A program made the position numbers and the translations under genes. From Fictibacillus nanhaiensis (GTDB lineage Bacteria > Bacillota > Bacilli > Bacillales > Fictibacillaceae): a stretch of DNA of 64,000 bases. Shown one piece after another: positions 50,812 through 59,044 of this stretch. Positions within the stretch are counted from its first letter, which is position 1, and the number at the start of each line of letters is the position of its first letter. The notes under the pieces were generated by a model, which saw only the letters and a list, made by a program, of their open reading frames with translations, was not told the origin of the DNA and searched no databases. The stretch is from NCBI GenBank assembly GCA_016401345.1, contig JAEACG010000004.1, positions 1 to 64,000 on the forward strand, read 5' to 3'.

Positions 50812-50991
50812 ATGCAGTCATTGAATGTTGGAGATGTTCTTTATCAGCTGGTAATGTTTTTAATTCTGATTGCCATCATCGTTGGAGTTGGTTTATTAGT
50901 GAAGCGAGCTGTGAGTACGGATAGAAGATTGAAACGTATTGAAGAAAAAGTGGATGAATTAAAAGTTGAGAAAGGAAGAGACCGCACATGA
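50812..50991 (+). CDS. Small DUF4083-like membrane protein
   Basis: The 59-residue protein has one membrane helix (QLVMFLILIAIIVGVGLLV) and a charged coiled-coil tail (RLKRIEEKVDELK), a DUF4083-like pattern. ATG 50812 follows AAAGGGG; the longer frame from 50791 starts before that site. The stop overlaps the minJ start (ATGA). Co-translation with MinJ suggests a division-related partner, which is inference. Confidence 0.7.
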   Translation: MQSLNVGDVLYQLVMFLILIAIIVGVGLLVKRAVSTDRRLKRIEEKVDELKVEKGRDRT

Positions 50992-52187
50992 CAGACACCT
51001 TTGTGAAAGAATTACTTCAGGGCATGCTGCTGCTTTTTTTACACCCGCTTTTTTATGGTTTTATTCTTGTTGCTTTCTTAATTGGATTAAAACGTGTGAA
51101 ACGAGAGAGAAAAGAATTTAAAGTGCGCGTGCATCCCGTTATTGATAATTTAATATTTTCATTGCTACCAGGCATTTTGATTGGACTCATCGGTTCAGTA
51201 ATCTTTGTGGCAGCTGGTATCACATTGCCGCTTGGAATGATTGCTTTAATCGGTGTTGTATATGTGGCTTTAGGCTTAACGTTTAAAACAAGGTTTATGA
51301 ATCCTGCATACGCTGTGAGTTTGGCGGCAGTTGTTGGTTTGTTGCTTCCAAAATTTCAACTCGGAATTTCTTTTCTAGATCGTTGGATTGTTGATGTTCA
51401 AAAAACCCCGCTTGATTCATTAGCGGTCATTATTGGTGTTCTTTTGATTCAAGAAGGGATACTGGTCATCTGGAAAGGTGCAGATCGCACTTCTCCCCGG
51501 CTGTTCAAAGGAAAACGAGGACATTACATCGGTGCACATGAAGCTACGAGATTTTGGATTGTTCCTCAGTTTTTAGTTTTACCTGTAGGCTCAATTCCTG
51601 TTTTAGATTGGTGGCCGTTGTTTCCGATGGGTGCGGTAGGATTCTCATTTTTCCTCGTACCGTTTGCCATTGGGTATCGCCAGCTGGTTACACATACACT
51701 GCCGGAAGAAGCAATTAAACATCTAGGCAGACAAGTTTTGATTTTAGGATTTATCGTAACAGGCATTGCAGCAGTAGGTCATTTTTATAATTTACCGCTT
51801 CTAATTGCTATAGCAATCGCAGCCGGTCTTGCTGGGCGCGAGCTCATCACACTCGTGACGAGCCAACGTGATGATACGAGACCATCTCATTTTGTTCCAA
51901 GAGATCAGGGAGTTATGATTCTTTCAGTCGTACCAGGGACACCCGCTGCAAAGATGGGATTAAAGATTGGCGAAGTCATTGTAAAAGTAAATGGAGTCAC
52001 ACTTTCACACGAATCAAGTTTGTACCGAGCCCTGCAAATTAACGCTGCTTACTGCAAACTGGAAGTTCTTAATCTGAATGGTGAGATTCGTTTCGTTCAA
52101 GGATCACTCTATCAAAATGAACACCACCAACTAGGTGTACTCCTCGTCCATGATGTAGTAGATCGGAATGCTGCTGTTGGGGATTGA
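50988..52187 (+). CDS. minJ: MinJ-like polytopic PDZ protein
   Basis: The 399-residue protein has about eight membrane helices and a C-terminal PDZ domain (~305-390, VPGTPAAKMGLKIGEVIVKVNG). MinJ links DivIVA to MinD at cell poles and septa in Bacilli and lies in the same ctpB neighbourhood in B. subtilis. It overlaps the small DUF4083-like gene by 4 bp. It is the last backbone gene before the accessory island. Confidence 0.85.
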   Translation: MTDTFVKELLQGMLLLFLHPLFYGFILVAFLIGLKRVKRERKEFKVRVHPVIDNLIFSLLPGILIGLIGSVIFVAAGITLPLGMIALIGVVYVALGLTFKTRFMNPAYAVSLAAVVGLLLPKFQLGISFLDRWIVDVQKTPLDSLAVIIGVLLIQEGILVIWKGADRTSPRLFKGKRGHYIGAHEATRFWIVPQFLVLPVGSIPVLDWWPLFPMGAVGFSFFLVPFAIGYRQLVTHTLPEEAIKHLGRQVLILGFIVTGIAAVGHFYNLPLLIAIAIAAGLAGRELITLVTSQRDDTRPSHFVPRDQGVMILSVVPGTPAAKMGLKIGEVIVKVNGVTLSHESSLYRALQINAAYCKLEVLNLNGEIRFVQGSLYQNEHHQLGVLLVHDVVDRNAAVGD

Positions 52188-52206
52188 TGTGATTTTTCAT
52201 AATTAA

Positions 52207-52256
52207 CCGGAATCTGTTCAAAATTCGCCGGAATGATTTCATAATTTATCGGAATT
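52207..52256. repeat. 21-bp periodic array, CCGGAAT core, three units
   Basis: CCGGAAT, CCGGAAT and TCGGAAT start at 52207, 52228 and 52249, exactly 21 bp apart, just after the minJ stop. Confidence 0.75.
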
Positions 52257-52308
52257 TCATAATTGTTATATAGAGGGCTCATTTAACGTGAGTCCTTTTA
52301 AATTTTTG

Positions 52309-52340
52309 TTATTCCACAAACGGGCCAGATTGTGGAATAA
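52309..52340. repeat. Palindromic hairpin element, best copy
   Basis: TTATTCCACAA and TTGTGGAATAA form a perfect 11-bp inverted repeat around ACGGGCCAGA. Degenerate relatives lie at 55407-55440, 56425-56452 and 57813-57850. The rest of 52260-52578 shows no gene. Confidence 0.8.
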
Positions 52341-52578
52341 GTTATTGTAAGTTGTAGATAAATTAAAAGTTTTTTGATTAATGCTAGTTACTGGAATTAA
52401 CCGCTGGTAAAATAATAGTAATAGACTACATGATAGTTTCATTATCATAATTCGGTAACTGTTTAATAAATGGACAACCTTTTCAACTCGTCTGCATAAT
52501 CTATTTTAATTTTTACATTCCTTAATTATGTATATTTATTAAGGAATGCTAGGACAATTTTAAAATGAGGTGAACAAC

Positions 52579-53310
52579 TTGGAAGGATTTTTAAGTACTT
52601 TTGTATTTATTTTACCTGGAATTATGGCCTATTTTTGGTTACAAGTTTTTGGGCTAAACCCAACGATTAAACACACTGCACCAGAACTTTCTGGAATTTC
52701 AGCATTACTATGGTTACCTGTAAGTTTTAGTACTCTTCTATTATTAAATTTATGGAGTAATATTAATAAAATTGATTACTTTATAGTGGATAATGTAAAG
52801 ACAATTACTGATCTGAACAAAGCCACTTCAGATATAAGGTATATTGCGCTATTTTTACTAGTAAGCCTAGTGGTAAGTTACTATATTTGTTGGTTTTGGT
52901 GTTTATGGGGTAATGAATTTTTAAGAAGTAGAATTAATAATGTCAGAAAATCAAGAGGTATTGCCTTGCTTTCTTCTAGTGCTTCAGTGTGGGAAGAGTT
53001 TTTTATAAAAATAAATAATGATAATGCTAAAGAAGAGAAGGAATGCGAAAATGTTCAGAGTAAGAAAGCAGTCCTAATAGTTTATAAGATAGATAAACCT
53101 GAGGAATTTGTTGCAGGATCTATGACAAAGGCTTCAAGGCCTTTTGAATTAGATAAAAGCTTAGTATTAGAAGACACTCAAGAATGGGTAGATTCTATAA
53201 ATAATGATTATGATTATGATGTTAAAAGAGTATATGTTGATATTAAATCAGGAATGGTTGTTAAAGAGCTAAATTATGAAAATCCTAAAGATAAACTTAA
53301 TAAAAAATAA
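52579..53310 (+). CDS. DUF6338-like membrane protein
   Basis: The ~243-residue protein has an N-terminal membrane helix ending in a conserved-looking PGIMAYFWL, two further helices (~40-60 and ~90-115) and a cytoplasmic domain with SVWEEFF and FVAGSMTKASRPFELDKSL, features of the DUF6338 family. No function is established. TTG 52579 is preferred because GAGGTG (52567-52572) lies six bases upstream; the GTG at 52570 overlaps it. Codons are AT-rich compared with the backbone. It converges on two tiny peptide genes. Confidence 0.65.
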   Translation: MEGFLSTFVFILPGIMAYFWLQVFGLNPTIKHTAPELSGISALLWLPVSFSTLLLLNLWSNINKIDYFIVDNVKTITDLNKATSDIRYIALFLLVSLVVSYYICWFWCLWGNEFLRSRINNVRKSRGIALLSSSASVWEEFFIKINNDNAKEEKECENVQSKKAVLIVYKIDKPEEFVAGSMTKASRPFELDKSLVLEDTQEWVDSINNDYDYDVKRVYVDIKSGMVVKELNYENPKDKLNKK

Positions 53311-53312
53311 AT

Positions 53313-53340
53313 AAAAAAGGGTAGGGGTTACCCTTTTTTT
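53313..53340. terminator. Terminator shared by convergent island genes
   Basis: AAAAAAGGGTA pairs with TACCCTTTTTT. It ends the DUF6338-like gene on the plus strand; the stop of peptide 1 (minus strand) is inside it. Confidence 0.75.
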
Positions 53341-53450
53341 GGTGGTGGAGAAACCTTTATACTATCAACTGACCCATTTACTTTACCACCAGGAGCCTTA
53401 GATGTAGGTAAGCCATGAGTTTTATGTGATTTTGGTTGTTTCTTTGACAC
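53328..53450 (-). CDS. Tiny proline-rich peptide 1, 40 residues
   Basis: The frame starts at GTG 53450 with GGAGTG six bases upstream and ends at a TAA inside the terminator. The product is basic, begins MSKKQPKSHKTHG and ends SVDSIKVSPPPKKG. The second tiny gene upstream ends with the same pattern (SIEGIKISPPPPP), which argues that both are real and related. There is no signal peptide or membrane helix. I do not recognise a family. Confidence 0.6.
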   Translation of the reverse strand: MSKKQPKSHKTHGLPTSKAPGGKVNGSVDSIKVSPPPKKG

Positions 53451-53486
53451 ATACAACACTCCGTTCTTTTAGTTATGTATTTATTT

Positions 53487-53591
53487 TTATTTACGAGGAC
53501 TTGGTGGAGGAGGAGGAGAGATTTTAATACCTTCTATCGATCTTTCTTCGTGCTGCGGTGGATTTGAATTATTATCATAGACATTGCTCAT
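53487..53591 (-). CDS. Tiny proline-rich peptide 2, 34 residues
   Basis: The frame starts at ATG 53591 with AAGGAG eight bases upstream. The product is MSNVYDNNSNPPQHEER followed by SIEGIKISPPPPPSPRK. The last 12-14 residues match the end of peptide 1 (S-V/I-D/E-S/G-IK-V/I-SPPP). It lies 36 bp upstream of peptide 1, so the two may form one operon. The role is unknown; candidates are a partner of the DUF6338 protein, a signal peptide or a toxin/antitoxin-like pair. Confidence 0.6.
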   Translation of the reverse strand: MSNVYDNNSNPPQHEERSIEGIKISPPPPPSPRK

Positions 53592-53767
53592 ATAATAATC
53601 TCCTTTTAACTTTTGTATGTGAACATTAATTATTTCTACAAATGTAATTGAAATTCCTTTTCGAAACTAAAAATTAATTAAGGTGCTTAATTTAGTGAAG
53701 GATTTTGTCATAAAAGCGAGAATTATACCATTAAATGTAAAATAAAATCTTAGGTTGGAGTGATAAT

Positions 53768-54673
53768 ATGACAATACCTTCATCTGTACTAGAATCTTGG
53801 TCTAATCAGGGTGCAACAACTACTCCAAAATTGTTGAGAGAAAAAATTGAAAAAAAATTATTAGGAGAGAACTCAAAAATTCAACGTAAAAATGAGCTTG
53901 ATATATATATACAAGGTTCTTATCGAAACAATACTAACATTTATGGAAATAGTGATGTAGATATCGTGGTACAACATGATGCCACTTTTTTTAGTGACTT
54001 GTCTGCATTAGATACGTATGAAAAAAATATTTATGAGAGCGCTTTTGCTGATGCCACATATCGATGGGATGAGTTTAAAAGGGACGTTATTAAAACTCTA
54101 GAGGATGCTTTTGGTAAAGGTAATGTTGAGATAGGAAATAAATCTATAAGAATTGATGATGGAAGTTACGAGGCAGATGTAGTACCTTGTTTTGAGTATA
54201 GAAAATATACTTCTTTTGGAACATCTGAATATGAAAGACAGTATATTAGGGGAATAAAATTTTTTACAACAAACGAACGTAGATCAGTTGTTAATTATCC
54301 AAAAGAACACTATGCAAACGGAGCGAATAAGAATCAGAAGGTAAATACTCGTTTCAAACCAACTATAAGAATATTTAAGAATATGAAAAAGAAATTAGTT
54401 GATAAGAATATGTTAACAAAAGAAGAAGCACCGTCATATTTCTTAGAAAATTTACTATATAACGTACCAGACAATTATTTTAATAACAGTGATGTTGCTA
54501 ATCGAGTTTATAATATTCTTAAGTGGCTTGGTGACAACAGAAATTCTTTATCTGAATTTGTCTGTCAGAATGAACAAATTTACTTGTTTGGTCCTAGTCA
54601 AGAACAATGGAATGAAACGGATGCTAAAAATTTTATCGATCAAGTAATCAACCTTTGGAATGAGTGGGTATAA
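53768..54673 (+). CDS. CBASS CD-NTase (cyclic oligonucleotide synthase)
   Basis: The 301-residue nucleotidyltransferase of the OAS/cGAS-like class has the activation loop GSYRNNTNIYGNSDVDIVV (GS at 50-51, catalytic Asp63 and Asp65) and the third Asp at 137 (EADVVP). These are the marks of SMODS/CD-NTases that make cyclic di- or trinucleotides when phage infect. The product cannot be read from sequence. The stop overlaps the downstream effector gene (TAATG), giving a two-gene unit. GGAGTG precedes the ATG. Confidence 0.88.
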   Translation: MTIPSSVLESWSNQGATTTPKLLREKIEKKLLGENSKIQRKNELDIYIQGSYRNNTNIYGNSDVDIVVQHDATFFSDLSALDTYEKNIYESAFADATYRWDEFKRDVIKTLEDAFGKGNVEIGNKSIRIDDGSYEADVVPCFEYRKYTSFGTSEYERQYIRGIKFFTTNERRSVVNYPKEHYANGANKNQKVNTRFKPTIRIFKNMKKKLVDKNMLTKEEAPSYFLENLLYNVPDNYFNNSDVANRVYNILKWLGDNRNSLSEFVCQNEQIYLFGPSQEQWNETDAKNFIDQVINLWNEWV

Positions 54674-55275
54674 TGCATGAATATAGTATAGATGTGGATC
54701 ATAGTAAAATAATTTTTTACCTAGCAGTTTTATCAGTAGGGTTATCAACAGTTATAACTAAACTCCTTACATTTTTCTTTAATACACTTCCAGATATGGA
54801 ATTCACTATTTCACTCACAGCTATCTCTATCTTCGGTTTACTTTACAAACTCTTTGATAAGTTTTTCTGGAAATGGAAATGGTTTAGAAAAATAGGGATC
54901 GTACAAACACCTGATTTAAATGGTACTTGGAAGGGAGAATTTGTTTCATCTTTTTATAATTGGAAAGGAAAATATCCTGCAGAACTTGAAATTGAACAAA
55001 CATGGACTGAAATTTGTATTAGTGGGAAATTTAACAATTCAACTTCATCTAGTTATACCACTGCTATTAAAGTTAGGGATGGCGGGGGAATAAAGATTTT
55101 TTATTCCTATAGAAACGATAAAAAGCCTGAGAAATCAAATGCAAGCTACTCTGATCATAAAGGATATACTTCTCTAATATTGAATAAAGAAGAACAATCT
55201 TTTGAAGGTCAATATTTTAATAATCCATCCAATAACAAAAATCACGGTACTTTACATTTAAAAAGAATTACATGA
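54673..55275 (+). CDS. cap15: Cap15-type CBASS effector, 2TM plus beta-barrel
   Basis: The 200-residue protein has two N-terminal membrane helices (~12-36 and ~42-60), a Trp/Lys-rich juxtamembrane segment and a beta-rich domain from ~78 (TPDLNGTWKGEF, then AELEIEQTWTEICISGKF) that ends with a hydrophobic GTLHLKRI strand. This is the Cap15 layout. Cap15 binds the cyclic nucleotide, oligomerises and disrupts the inner membrane to abort infection. It starts at the ATG overlapping the CD-NTase stop. No Cap2/Cap3 or HORMA/TRIP13 genes are present, so it is a minimal type I CBASS. Confidence 0.83.
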   Translation: MHEYSIDVDHSKIIFYLAVLSVGLSTVITKLLTFFFNTLPDMEFTISLTAISIFGLLYKLFDKFFWKWKWFRKIGIVQTPDLNGTWKGEFVSSFYNWKGKYPAELEIEQTWTEICISGKFNNSTSSSYTTAIKVRDGGGIKIFYSYRNDKKPEKSNASYSDHKGYTSLILNKEEQSFEGQYFNNPSNNKNHGTLHLKRIT

Positions 55276-55406
55276 AATTAAATCTTCCTTTTTAAAGTTA
55301 TTTCTGCAGCCTTATTTTTATTGTATTAACAAAATTTTTATTTGTTTTTTTGTATTCAACAATCCGATGCGTTGATCCAAGAAGGATTAACGCCTTTATT
55401 ATGGAA

Positions 55407-55440
55407 CTTATTGAACAAACGAGCAGGATTGTGGAATAAG
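55407..55440. repeat. Palindromic hairpin element, degenerate copy
   Basis: CTTATTGAACAA and TTGTGGAATAAG form an inverted repeat with two mismatches. The centre ACGAGCAGGA is shared with the copy near 57813. Confidence 0.6.
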
Positions 55441-55496
55441 ATGAATATAAAAAGAGTGTTTTGTTAAATGTTTATGTTGATATAGGGGGGATTAGA

Positions 55497-55916
55497 TTGG
55501 ATAAGGAGAAAGAGAAAATAATTGTAAAATCATTTTTCACCAAAAGGCTCCAAGACAGGGTTCTCTTCGAATTGTCTTCAACTAAGAAACGCAAAGATGC
55601 TCTAGACCGTCTTTGTCATTCTTATAGGACAACTCTTCGTGAAAAGTATCTATTTGATATTCCAAAGCCAAATTCAGACCCCGAAGAAATAGCTATGTTG
55701 TTGAAACAAAATGGTGCTGGAGACTCCTGTTATGTCATATCCTGGGATGAAGGAATTGATGGCAAGGAGCTACCACCATTATTAGTAGCCTTAGAAAATG
55801 CTGTTGGGATGGGGATGCCATCAATCATATCCTGTATACCAGATAAACTCGCTTATTTTGAAGCTGAACAAGAAGTTCTTCCTTCACCAAGATTTTTATT
55901 AAAAAGGCAGCAATAA
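55497..55916 (+). CDS. Orphan soluble protein in the island
   Basis: The ~139-residue soluble protein starts at TTG 55497, six bases after GGGGGG. Segments such as TKRLQDRVLFELSSTKKRKDAL divided by GAGDSCYVISWDEGIDGKEL and PSIISCIPDKLAYFE are well formed, so it is probably functional. I recall similar short proteins in Bacillaceae polymorphic-toxin and defence neighbourhoods but cannot name the family. An immunity-like role is a guess. Confidence 0.6.
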   Translation: MDKEKEKIIVKSFFTKRLQDRVLFELSSTKKRKDALDRLCHSYRTTLREKYLFDIPKPNSDPEEIAMLLKQNGAGDSCYVISWDEGIDGKELPPLLVALENAVGMGMPSIISCIPDKLAYFEAEQEVLPSPRFLLKRQQ

Positions 55917-56110: not shown

Positions 56111-56353
56111 GTGAGAATATTGATCATCGAGATTGAAGGGTTCTTCCATCAAGTCCATTTAACAGGTAGAAAATGTACTCTATATGAACTAAAACAAAAG
56201 TATTTAGCTACAAAGGAGTTATGTTACAACATTACAGATCTTCCAGACCTCTTCTGTCGTATGCATAACTTTGATCGACTCCCTTATGATAAAAATTTAG
56301 AAGTCGATTTTGTTATTGATACAGATACCGATAGAATATATAGTCCTTCTTAA
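56111..56353 (+). CDS. Short orphan protein, possibly truncated
   Basis: The 80-residue frame starts with GTG and has no good ribosome binding site. The sequence is protein-like (RILIIEIEGFFHQVHLTGRK, then LEVDFVIDTDTDRIYSPS). It may be the remnant of a longer gene. No function is recognisable. Confidence 0.4.
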   Translation: MRILIIEIEGFFHQVHLTGRKCTLYELKQKYLATKELCYNITDLPDLFCRMHNFDRLPYDKNLEVDFVIDTDTDRIYSPS

Positions 56354-58019: not shown

Positions 58020-58183
58020 AAACCACAAGCTGTGGTCTTGTTATTTGCAATGATCCAGTGCATAGAGGAAATTAAGGAGTACAATCTGGAAAAAGGTGAA
58101 TAATATTCCTGTGTTGTAAAGGATTTTAGCTGAACTGTTTTATAGTAAGGAATCAAGAATAATACATATTTAAAGGTGAGATG

Positions 58184-59044
58184 ATGAAAAAATTTCTTGA
58201 GTATGTTTTTTTAACTTTGGGGGCGTCAATCGTTGCTATGGGATTAGAAACGATGTTAGCACCAAACGGGCTAGTAGATGGTGGTGTAACTGCGTTATCA
58301 ATTATGGCCAATGCTTTATGGGGAATCCCAATTTATGTTGTATTTTTGGGCTTGAATATTCCTATCTTAATTTTTACAGCTAAAGAAGTGGGTAAAACCT
58401 TTGTCATTAGAACTCTATATGCAAATATCATTACTACCGTTGGTTTAGTATTATTTAAATCGATTCCTCCTATTACTCAATCTGAAGTATTAATTGTTTT
58501 ATACGGTGGGGTAATCTTAGGAGTTGGGATAGGAATCGTTGTAAAGTTTGGCGGTGCAATAGATGGCACTGAAATGCTGGCGATTTGGTTTAACCAACAC
58601 TATCGATTTCCGATTGCCTCATTTTTATTAGTCGTGAATGCTTTCATATTTACGATTGCAGCGCTTGTCTATTCATTGGAACAGGCCATGCTTTCTCTGG
58701 CGGTTTTTTATATAGTGACGAAAATGATTAATTATGTTTTAGATGGATTAAATCGTGGGAAATCTGTCATGATCATTTCAGAAAAACCGGATGAAGTTGG
58801 AGATAGTATTATTAATCATTTAAATATCAGCATCACATTTTTATATGGAGAAGGCGGTTTTTTAGGGGAAAGAAAGAAGGTTATTTATTGTATAACGAAC
58901 AGGTTTATTTTTTCCAAATTACAAAGTGTCGTTTTAGCAGCAGATCCATCAGCTATTTTGGAGGCATCCTATGTTTGTGAAACATCTGGTATAGATAGGT
59001 CGCTTATATTACCGAAAGCCCACCCTTCTAACAATAAATCGTAA
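58184..59044 (+). CDS. YitT/DUF161 family membrane protein, second copy
   Basis: The ~286-residue protein has five to six membrane helices and the DUF161 pattern (APNGLVDGGVTALSIMA; FGGAIDGTEMLAIWF), with a C-terminal DUF2179 domain (SITFLYGEGGFLGERKKVIYCI). It is a distant paralogue of the product at 44666-45538. ATG 58184 is chosen with AAAGGTGAG upstream; the adjacent ATG at 58181 is too close to that site. Role unknown. Confidence 0.82.
   Translation: MKKFLEYVFLTLGASIVAMGLETMLAPNGLVDGGVTALSIMANALWGIPIYVVFLGLNIPILIFTAKEVGKTFVIRTLYANIITTVGLVLFKSIPPITQSEVLIVLYGGVILGVGIGIVVKFGGAIDGTEMLAIWFNQHYRFPIASFLLVVNAFIFTIAALVYSLEQAMLSLAVFYIVTKMINYVLDGLNRGKSVMIISEKPDEVGDSIINHLNISITFLYGEGGFLGERKKVIYCITNRFIFSKLQSVVLAADPSAILEASYVCETSGIDRSLILPKAHPSNNKS

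Follow-up and report, generated by a model that had tools for sequence, protein, structure and literature searches.

What could two tiny proline-rich peptides do that are encoded side by side between a DUF6338-like gene and a CBASS gene pair? This question is raised by a locus of Fictibacillus nanhaiensis, analysed here within a window of 64,000 nt (the whole stretch of DNA under study). An earlier note on this DNA had described two minus-strand frames of 40 and 34 codons, each with a ribosome-binding site, which converge on the DUF6338-like gene through a shared terminator and end in a common tail pattern, S-(V/I)-(D/E)-(S/G)-IK-(V/I)-SPPP. The likeness of the tails was held to exceed chance and to suggest an export, recognition or effector motif. 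The features concerned are the following:

52570-53310, plus strand: DUF6338-like gene (246 aa from the GTG at 52570; Pfam PF19865, E 5.6e-4)
53313-53339, minus strand: terminator-like stem of 11 pairs with a T-run, between the DUF6338-like gene and mini-gene 1 (consensus scan)
53323-53335, plus strand: terminator-like core of 5 pairs, followed by a T-run (consensus scan)
53328-53450, minus strand: mini-gene 1 (proximal), GTG start, 40 aa, MSKKQPKSHKTHGLPTSKAPGGKVNGSVDSIKVSPPPKKG, tail SVDSIKVSPPPKKG
53487-53591, minus strand: mini-gene 2 (distal), ATG start, 34 aa, MSNVYDNNSNPPQHEERSIEGIKISPPPPPSPRK, tail SIEGIKISPPPPPSPRK
53768-54673, plus strand: CBASS CD-NTase, an oligonucleotide cyclase (PADLOC Cyclase, E 1.2e-113)
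54664-55275, plus strand: CBASS Cap15-type effector (Pfam Cap15_CD_rec, E 2.1e-27, and Cap15_TM, E 3.4e-8; PADLOC 2TM effector, E 1.2e-64)

The Mini-Genes of the Window

Both frames and both ribosome-binding sites (GGAG for mini-gene 1 and AAAAGGAG for mini-gene 2, each ending 8 nt upstream of the start codon) are confirmed from the sequence, and the tail pattern is present exactly as claimed, in the forms SVDSIKVSPPP and SIEGIKISPPP. For mini-gene 1, the list of open reading frames also holds an alternative of 43 aa, which begins at an upstream GTG at 53459. Both mini-genes point toward the DUF6338-like gene without overlapping it, and a stem is found where the shared terminator had been proposed. 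As a consensus match, this terminator between the DUF6338-like gene and mini-gene 1 is putative; terminator-like sites number 5 within 52100-54000, as opposed to 0.7 in shuffles. The adjoining CD-NTase and Cap15 genes of CBASS are borne out by profile matches. Neither window peptide has a family in Pfam or PADLOC at E 0.1, and seven mini-proteins matched no family in PHROGs or NCBIfam at E 0.1.

A Predicted Membrane Protein as Neighbour

Homologues of the DUF6338-like protein favour a TTG start at 52579, corresponding to 243 aa. The protein matches positions 4-126 of the 205 profile positions of PF19865 with 20 bits, which lies under the gathering cut-off of 26.5, and the window's own genome yields no PF19865 match at E 0.001. 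Judged by these scores, it would be DUF6338-like in the sense of a distant subfamily or relative of PF19865. A 47-row alignment of DUF6338-like proteins exhibits 18 invariant columns, including F13, P16, G17, Y21, F22, W23, W48, P50, W141, G183, D224 and G228.

The AlphaFold2 model of the window protein (mean pLDDT 85.6) consists of helices at 2-27, 37-65 and 89-129, followed by a helix, strands and a further helix, and the hydrophobic peaks coincide with the three long helices. When the C-terminal domain is modelled alone (pLDDT 83.5), a helix, three strands, a helix and two strands are predicted. The models point to a membrane protein whose N-terminal part consists of three long helices and whose small C-terminal beta domain probably lies in the cytosol, as judged from the positive charges after helix 3. 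Searches against solved and viral structures returned no significant or convincing fold match for this protein, and no PADLOC model matches it or either window peptide.

Mini-Genes Beside DUF6338 Relatives

DUF6338-like relatives are scarce and occur in one of 34 genomes of the family (the window's own genome), in eight of 398 genomes of the class and in two plasmid records. An alignment query added 23 loci on genome contigs and 40 on viral contigs. On the 3' side of each locus, ORFs of 24-75 codons were sought, the only other demands being a start codon and a ribosome-binding site. The convergent short ORFs found in this way end between 46 nt before the DUF6338 stop and ~190 nt past it; in many Bacilli loci, up to about 47 nt are shared by mini-gene and DUF6338 gene. 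The collection of 68 distinct mini-proteins spans 31-64 aa, with a median net charge of +5 and 15% proline; MSQNKEAKSTPVIPVRETRSVDKPSARITPNQPKKK and MEKRPSFQTNVKPVGTGQGHQQNSVDKPSLTVKPSSTGVKPKK are typical examples. Of the 73 loci parsed, 17 were removed as redundant or truncated, which leaves a set of 56 Bacilli and prophage loci grouped into 27 clusters.

All six-frame ORFs of each locus were scored with a profile whose training set was confined to mini-proteins of loci with <60% DUF6338 identity. The top-scoring ORF lies at the expected place in 49 of the 56 loci, the misses being L005, L013, L014, L015, L016, L044 and L065; three of these, L013-L015, are closely related to the window and have a motif that departs from the other loci. 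Among the 1842 ORFs of the window, the mini-gene 1 peptide ranks first with a profile of this kind (E 0.16), and the mini-gene 2 peptide has no match; L013 and L015 have counterparts of mini-gene 2 in the same position by the 3'-side reading, as does L014 by profile. This first rank and these counterparts uphold the claim that the tails are more alike than chance would allow.

A full-family profile, which contains these very proteins, places at least one convergent mini-gene at the DUF6338 3' end in 55 of the 56 loci, with one copy in 34, two in 17, three in 3 and four in 1. At L065 (around 5699), DUF6338 is kept and the mini-gene is gone, with homology breaking just past the stop; the ligand proposed below would therefore not always be needed. 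When a 35-row mini-protein profile was run against the 398 whole genomes of the class, four matches were obtained, all adjacent to and convergent with DUF6338; these four were in the training set, so that the result of note is the lack of any match in the 390 genomes without DUF6338. The other four of the eight DUF6338 genomes fall below the profile threshold, among them L011, in which DUF6338 is broken.

Selection on the Peptides and Their Tails

In codon-blind DNA alignments of 74 mini-gene pairs, which are non-independent, first, second and third codon positions account for 724, 718 and 1206 changes, respectively, and 86 of 120 gaps are multiples of three. Mini-gene 1 differs at the three positions by 12/6/21 changes from L013, 8/8/18 from L014 and 14/7/21 from L015, with a dN/dS of 0.13-0.16 against these relatives (Nei-Gojobori, NG86). 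Homologues with conserved tail and frame have been found, and substitutions heed the codon position, with an excess at third positions. The mini-genes are real, paralogous and under protein-level selection, which confirms the initial observation.

Proximal and distal copies are both present in 17 loci, 16 of which were compared; L071 was left out, its proximal protein being the same as that of L019. In local alignments, proximal and distal copies score 45.6 on average within loci vs 34.7 between loci of different clusters (permutation p 4e-4, with related loci kept in the permutation and a scored segment that spans most of the protein in some loci), whereas the first 16 residues show no within-locus match across the same 16 loci (p 0.90). 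Proximal and distal copies overall have a pS of 0.77 and a pN of 0.39, and the tail of the window pair a pS of 0.92 and a pN of 0.16 over 11 codons. Since synonymous sites are mostly near saturation, recent duplication or conversion is a poor general explanation of the tail match. Recent conversion is possible at L013, where the copies have a pS of 0.27 (L026, 0.55), and in 4 of the 16 loci (L019, L052, L056 and L058) the locus's own copy does not rank near the top.

These patterns are fitted best by a locus-specific partner that would read the tail, most simply the single DUF6338 protein, to which binding is predicted. Among the three roles suggested for the motif, recognition is favoured because the paralogues match more within than between loci outside the N-terminus. 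Export finds no support, as the 68 mini-proteins contain no signal-like hydrophobic stretch (highest 15-residue mean hydropathy 0.73), although a leader without hydrophobicity is possible; cysteines in these proteins total 2.

The Arrangement Beyond Bacilli

The conserved tail takes the form SVDKPSxxI..PP..KK in most Bacilli, SxxxIKxSPPP in the window and GYxP, often with PPPKK, elsewhere. With L076, a Pfam-grade DUF6338 protein, as the query, 21 plasmid records and one phage record were retrieved, and 16 DUF6338 loci were examined among those 22 records. The usual arrangement on plasmids of Pseudomonadota and Actinomycetota consists of tiny same-strand neighbours of DUF6338 with GYxP; an example of a small ORF just downstream of DUF6338 on the same strand is MAEKKNDSKNNNQQVEKGYQPNVNGGYQPPKKVDNPSPPPKKP in L097. 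The motif G[YFW]xP is found just downstream of DUF6338 in 15 of 32 small ORFs preceded by a ribosome-binding site vs 4 of 327 in other parts of these loci, and a GYxP mini-ORF is present in 13 of the 16 plasmid or phage loci. GYxP and SVDKPS proteins are grouped here by arrangement and proline-richness, which does not imply common ancestry. Eight further DUF6338 loci from the class and the phylum were inspected by eye without a control, and six of them (L076, L078, L079, L080, L099 and L100) contain a proline-rich small ORF upstream of, convergent with or downstream of DUF6338; at the other two, the distant loci L077 and L098, no proline-rich small neighbour was found. A DUF6338 profile match also occurs in the genome of an archaeon, Haloferax volcanii.

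A comparable locus is on record in Pseudomonas stutzeri, for which the available text describes SEP1, SEP2 and SEP5 as proline-rich proteins of <50 aa encoded beside the DUF6338 protein Pstu14405_12030 (PMC10433244). According to the same text, all three were detected by mass spectrometry with 44-114 PSMs each, and the DUF6338 protein was undetected, with no membrane fraction analysed (PMC10433244). We infer that they are homologous to the mini-protein families identified here.

Defence Genes and Mobile DNA as Neighbours

In L013, one of the two closest relatives of the window (71% identity), a ThsB-like TIR gene and a caspase gene lie directly upstream, a pair that L014 and L015 lack. On a Proteus plasmid (L087), DUF6338, mini-gene, TIR and caspase follow in this order after Tn7-like genes, and on a Curtobacterium plasmid (L104) TIR and caspase are divergent from DUF6338, which is accompanied by a proline-rich small ORF without GYxP. 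With these three loci, TIR-caspase genes adjoin DUF6338 in three phyla. Furthermore, a cyclase and a 2TM effector immediately precede DUF6338 in L092, a caspase gene adjoins the mini-gene on the mini-gene's strand in L030, a caspase-like gene lies upstream in L016, and E1/JAB-type genes are nearby in L090 and L091. L086 contains a DUF4062 gene by annotation, with no PADLOC match; DUF4062 is presented as an antiphage TIR-like NADase in the accessible part of one report (PMC13174449).

Caspase relatives are found in 66 plasmid records, at least two of which also contain DUF6338, adjacent in both cases, where 0.02 would be expected if the two were independent; among the matches listed, caspase records mostly do not share a record with DUF6338. 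Close caspase relatives (E <1e-80) occur in six Bacilli genomes, and DUF6338 adjoins in one of the six. Among 141 Bacilli neighbour proteins, Prophage_tail (7) and integrase (5) outnumber caspase (3), the defence-neighbour counts being raw ones, uncorrected for background. Defence neighbours are present in several lineages, yet many DUF6338 copies look like plain prophage cargo. The link of the mini-genes is to DUF6338 and not to CBASS as such, since most relatives examined adjoin phage or other genes.

The window itself lies in a variable region, and the stretch after the PDZ gene differs from it in six of six congeners examined (50988-52187 and downstream). In one congener (G012), the position after the PDZ gene that corresponds to that of the window CBASS is occupied by genes for a CD-NTase (E 7e-112) and a 4TM effector (E 3e-86). 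This other CBASS pair indicates that the site takes up defence genes, and it is likely a defence hotspot.

Several further features were observed downstream. A repeat of ~100 bp at 55341-55442 has nine full or partial matches in the window's own genome, itself included, and recurs several times in the variable region of relatives (five times in L148, counting partial ones). The ORFs at 55461-55916 and 56111-56353 downstream of CBASS have no Pfam or PADLOC match at E 0.1. The gene at 58181-59044, which we take to be YitT-like, is 98% conserved in 2 of 17 congeners, reflecting variable content.

A Putative Module of Ligand and Membrane Protein

With about even confidence, DUF6338 and the mini-proteins are read here as a mobile module of ligand and membrane protein, most likely an accessory or effector arm of anti-phage defence. 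In this reading, the mini-proteins (31-64 residues in Bacilli), mostly basic and probably disordered, would be produced from one to four tandem genes and serve as cytosolic ligands. By its conserved tail, each would dock on the local DUF6338 protein and set the state or assembly of that protein at the membrane, as suggested by linkage and tails, and the module, carried by phages, plasmids and defence loci, would most likely act as an arm of anti-phage immunity at the membrane, as suggested by its neighbours. A broader proposal is offered tentatively, in which DUF6338 proteins across phyla are controlled by often multi-copy mini-proteins whose tails co-evolve with their partner, and the module serves as a plug-in that has been repeatedly recruited by CBASS, TIR-caspase and E1/JAB-linked loci as well as by prophages.

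A serious if unlikely alternative is prophage cargo for lysogenic conversion or superinfection exclusion that acts on the envelope, with defence neighbours resulting only from common mobile DNA. This would account for the 40 loci from the viral collection (by choice of that collection), for the Prophage_tail and integrase genes among the neighbours and for the position of the window in a variable region, but TIR-caspase genes as immediate neighbours in three phyla and CBASS genes as such neighbours in two loci argue against it, as do the plasmid records shared by caspase and DUF6338.

Also quite unlikely is a toxin-antitoxin or abortive infection system, in which DUF6338 harms the membrane and an abundant mini-protein restrains it until infection removes the latter, or in which the peptide is toxic and DUF6338 confers immunity. 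Classical toxin-antitoxin pairs are operons, whereas the Bacilli arrangement is convergent, and L065 keeps DUF6338 without a mini-gene. The mini-proteins may inhibit in the manner of an antitoxin, although L065 argues against a strict need for this. The mobile distribution and the regulated-death systems among some neighbours fit such a pair, as does the P. stutzeri proteome, in which, by the available text, the mini-proteins are detected and the DUF6338 protein is not, again with no membrane fraction analysed (PMC10433244).

It is improbable that the peptides are secreted, modified or antimicrobial, with DUF6338 as their exporter, modifier or immunity protein. They are small, mostly basic and proline-rich, and the P. 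stutzeri authors raise antimicrobial roles and biosynthetic clusters with DUF6338 in the text available (PMC10433244); however, the mini-proteins lack hydrophobic stretches and are nearly devoid of cysteine, and the neighbour families listed (25 of 68) include none that is obviously biosynthetic. Antisense RNA control of DUF6338 by convergent transcripts, with the peptides irrelevant, would fit the gene overlaps of many Bacilli loci, but is highly improbable given the amino-acid-level selection on the mini-genes, the same-strand arrangement in other phyla and the window genes, which do not overlap. Spurious ORFs that are alike by chance can practically be dismissed: the window peptides are weak against distant relatives (E 0.16; no match), but the linkage, codon-position, whole-genome and within-locus tail results contradict this idea, and comparable P. 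stutzeri genes are reported as detected proteins in the text at hand (PMC10433244).

If DUF6338 and its mini-proteins do form a module of ligand and membrane protein, an uncharacterised membrane domain of several bacterial phyla turns into a probable system of two parts, one of them a dedicated ligand. Should the module aid CBASS or TIR-caspase immunity, it would add a membrane component to those pathways.

Comparison With Known Systems

No family or system model tested claims the module, whose function is putative, and a similar arrangement has appeared once in print. The nearest family, PF19865 (DUF6338), is matched by the window protein over positions 4-126 of 205, with the difference that the match stays below the cut-off. 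CBASS systems with Cap15 or 2TM effectors are contiguous with DUF6338 in the window and in L092, but DUF6338 and the window peptides match no cyclase, effector or accessory model of PADLOC, whereas their neighbours match strongly. With toxin-antitoxin pairs that have small antitoxins, the module shares a small partner beside a larger protein and a mobile distribution; it differs in being convergent in Bacilli, in having one to four ligand genes and in tolerating the loss of the partner once (L065). Type IV Thoeris is described in the available text as a TIR protein with a caspase-like protease (PMC12847820), and such TIR-caspase pairs adjoin the DUF6338 modules of L013, L087 and L104, whereas the window carries CBASS instead.

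The closest likeness is the P. stutzeri locus, where tiny proline-rich proteins are likewise encoded beside a DUF6338 gene; it differs in being a predicted operon, and no motif, family or defence context is described in the available text (PMC10433244). Within the literature searched, DUF6338 is named only in that report, whose authors, as far as the text is accessible, detected no conservation outside P. stutzeri and suggested the evolution of new genes (PMC10433244). The present loci indicate that the arrangement reported there as species-specific is widespread, and a dedicated DUF6338 partner would account for the proline-rich mini-proteins detected by that proteome study and taken to be confined to one species.
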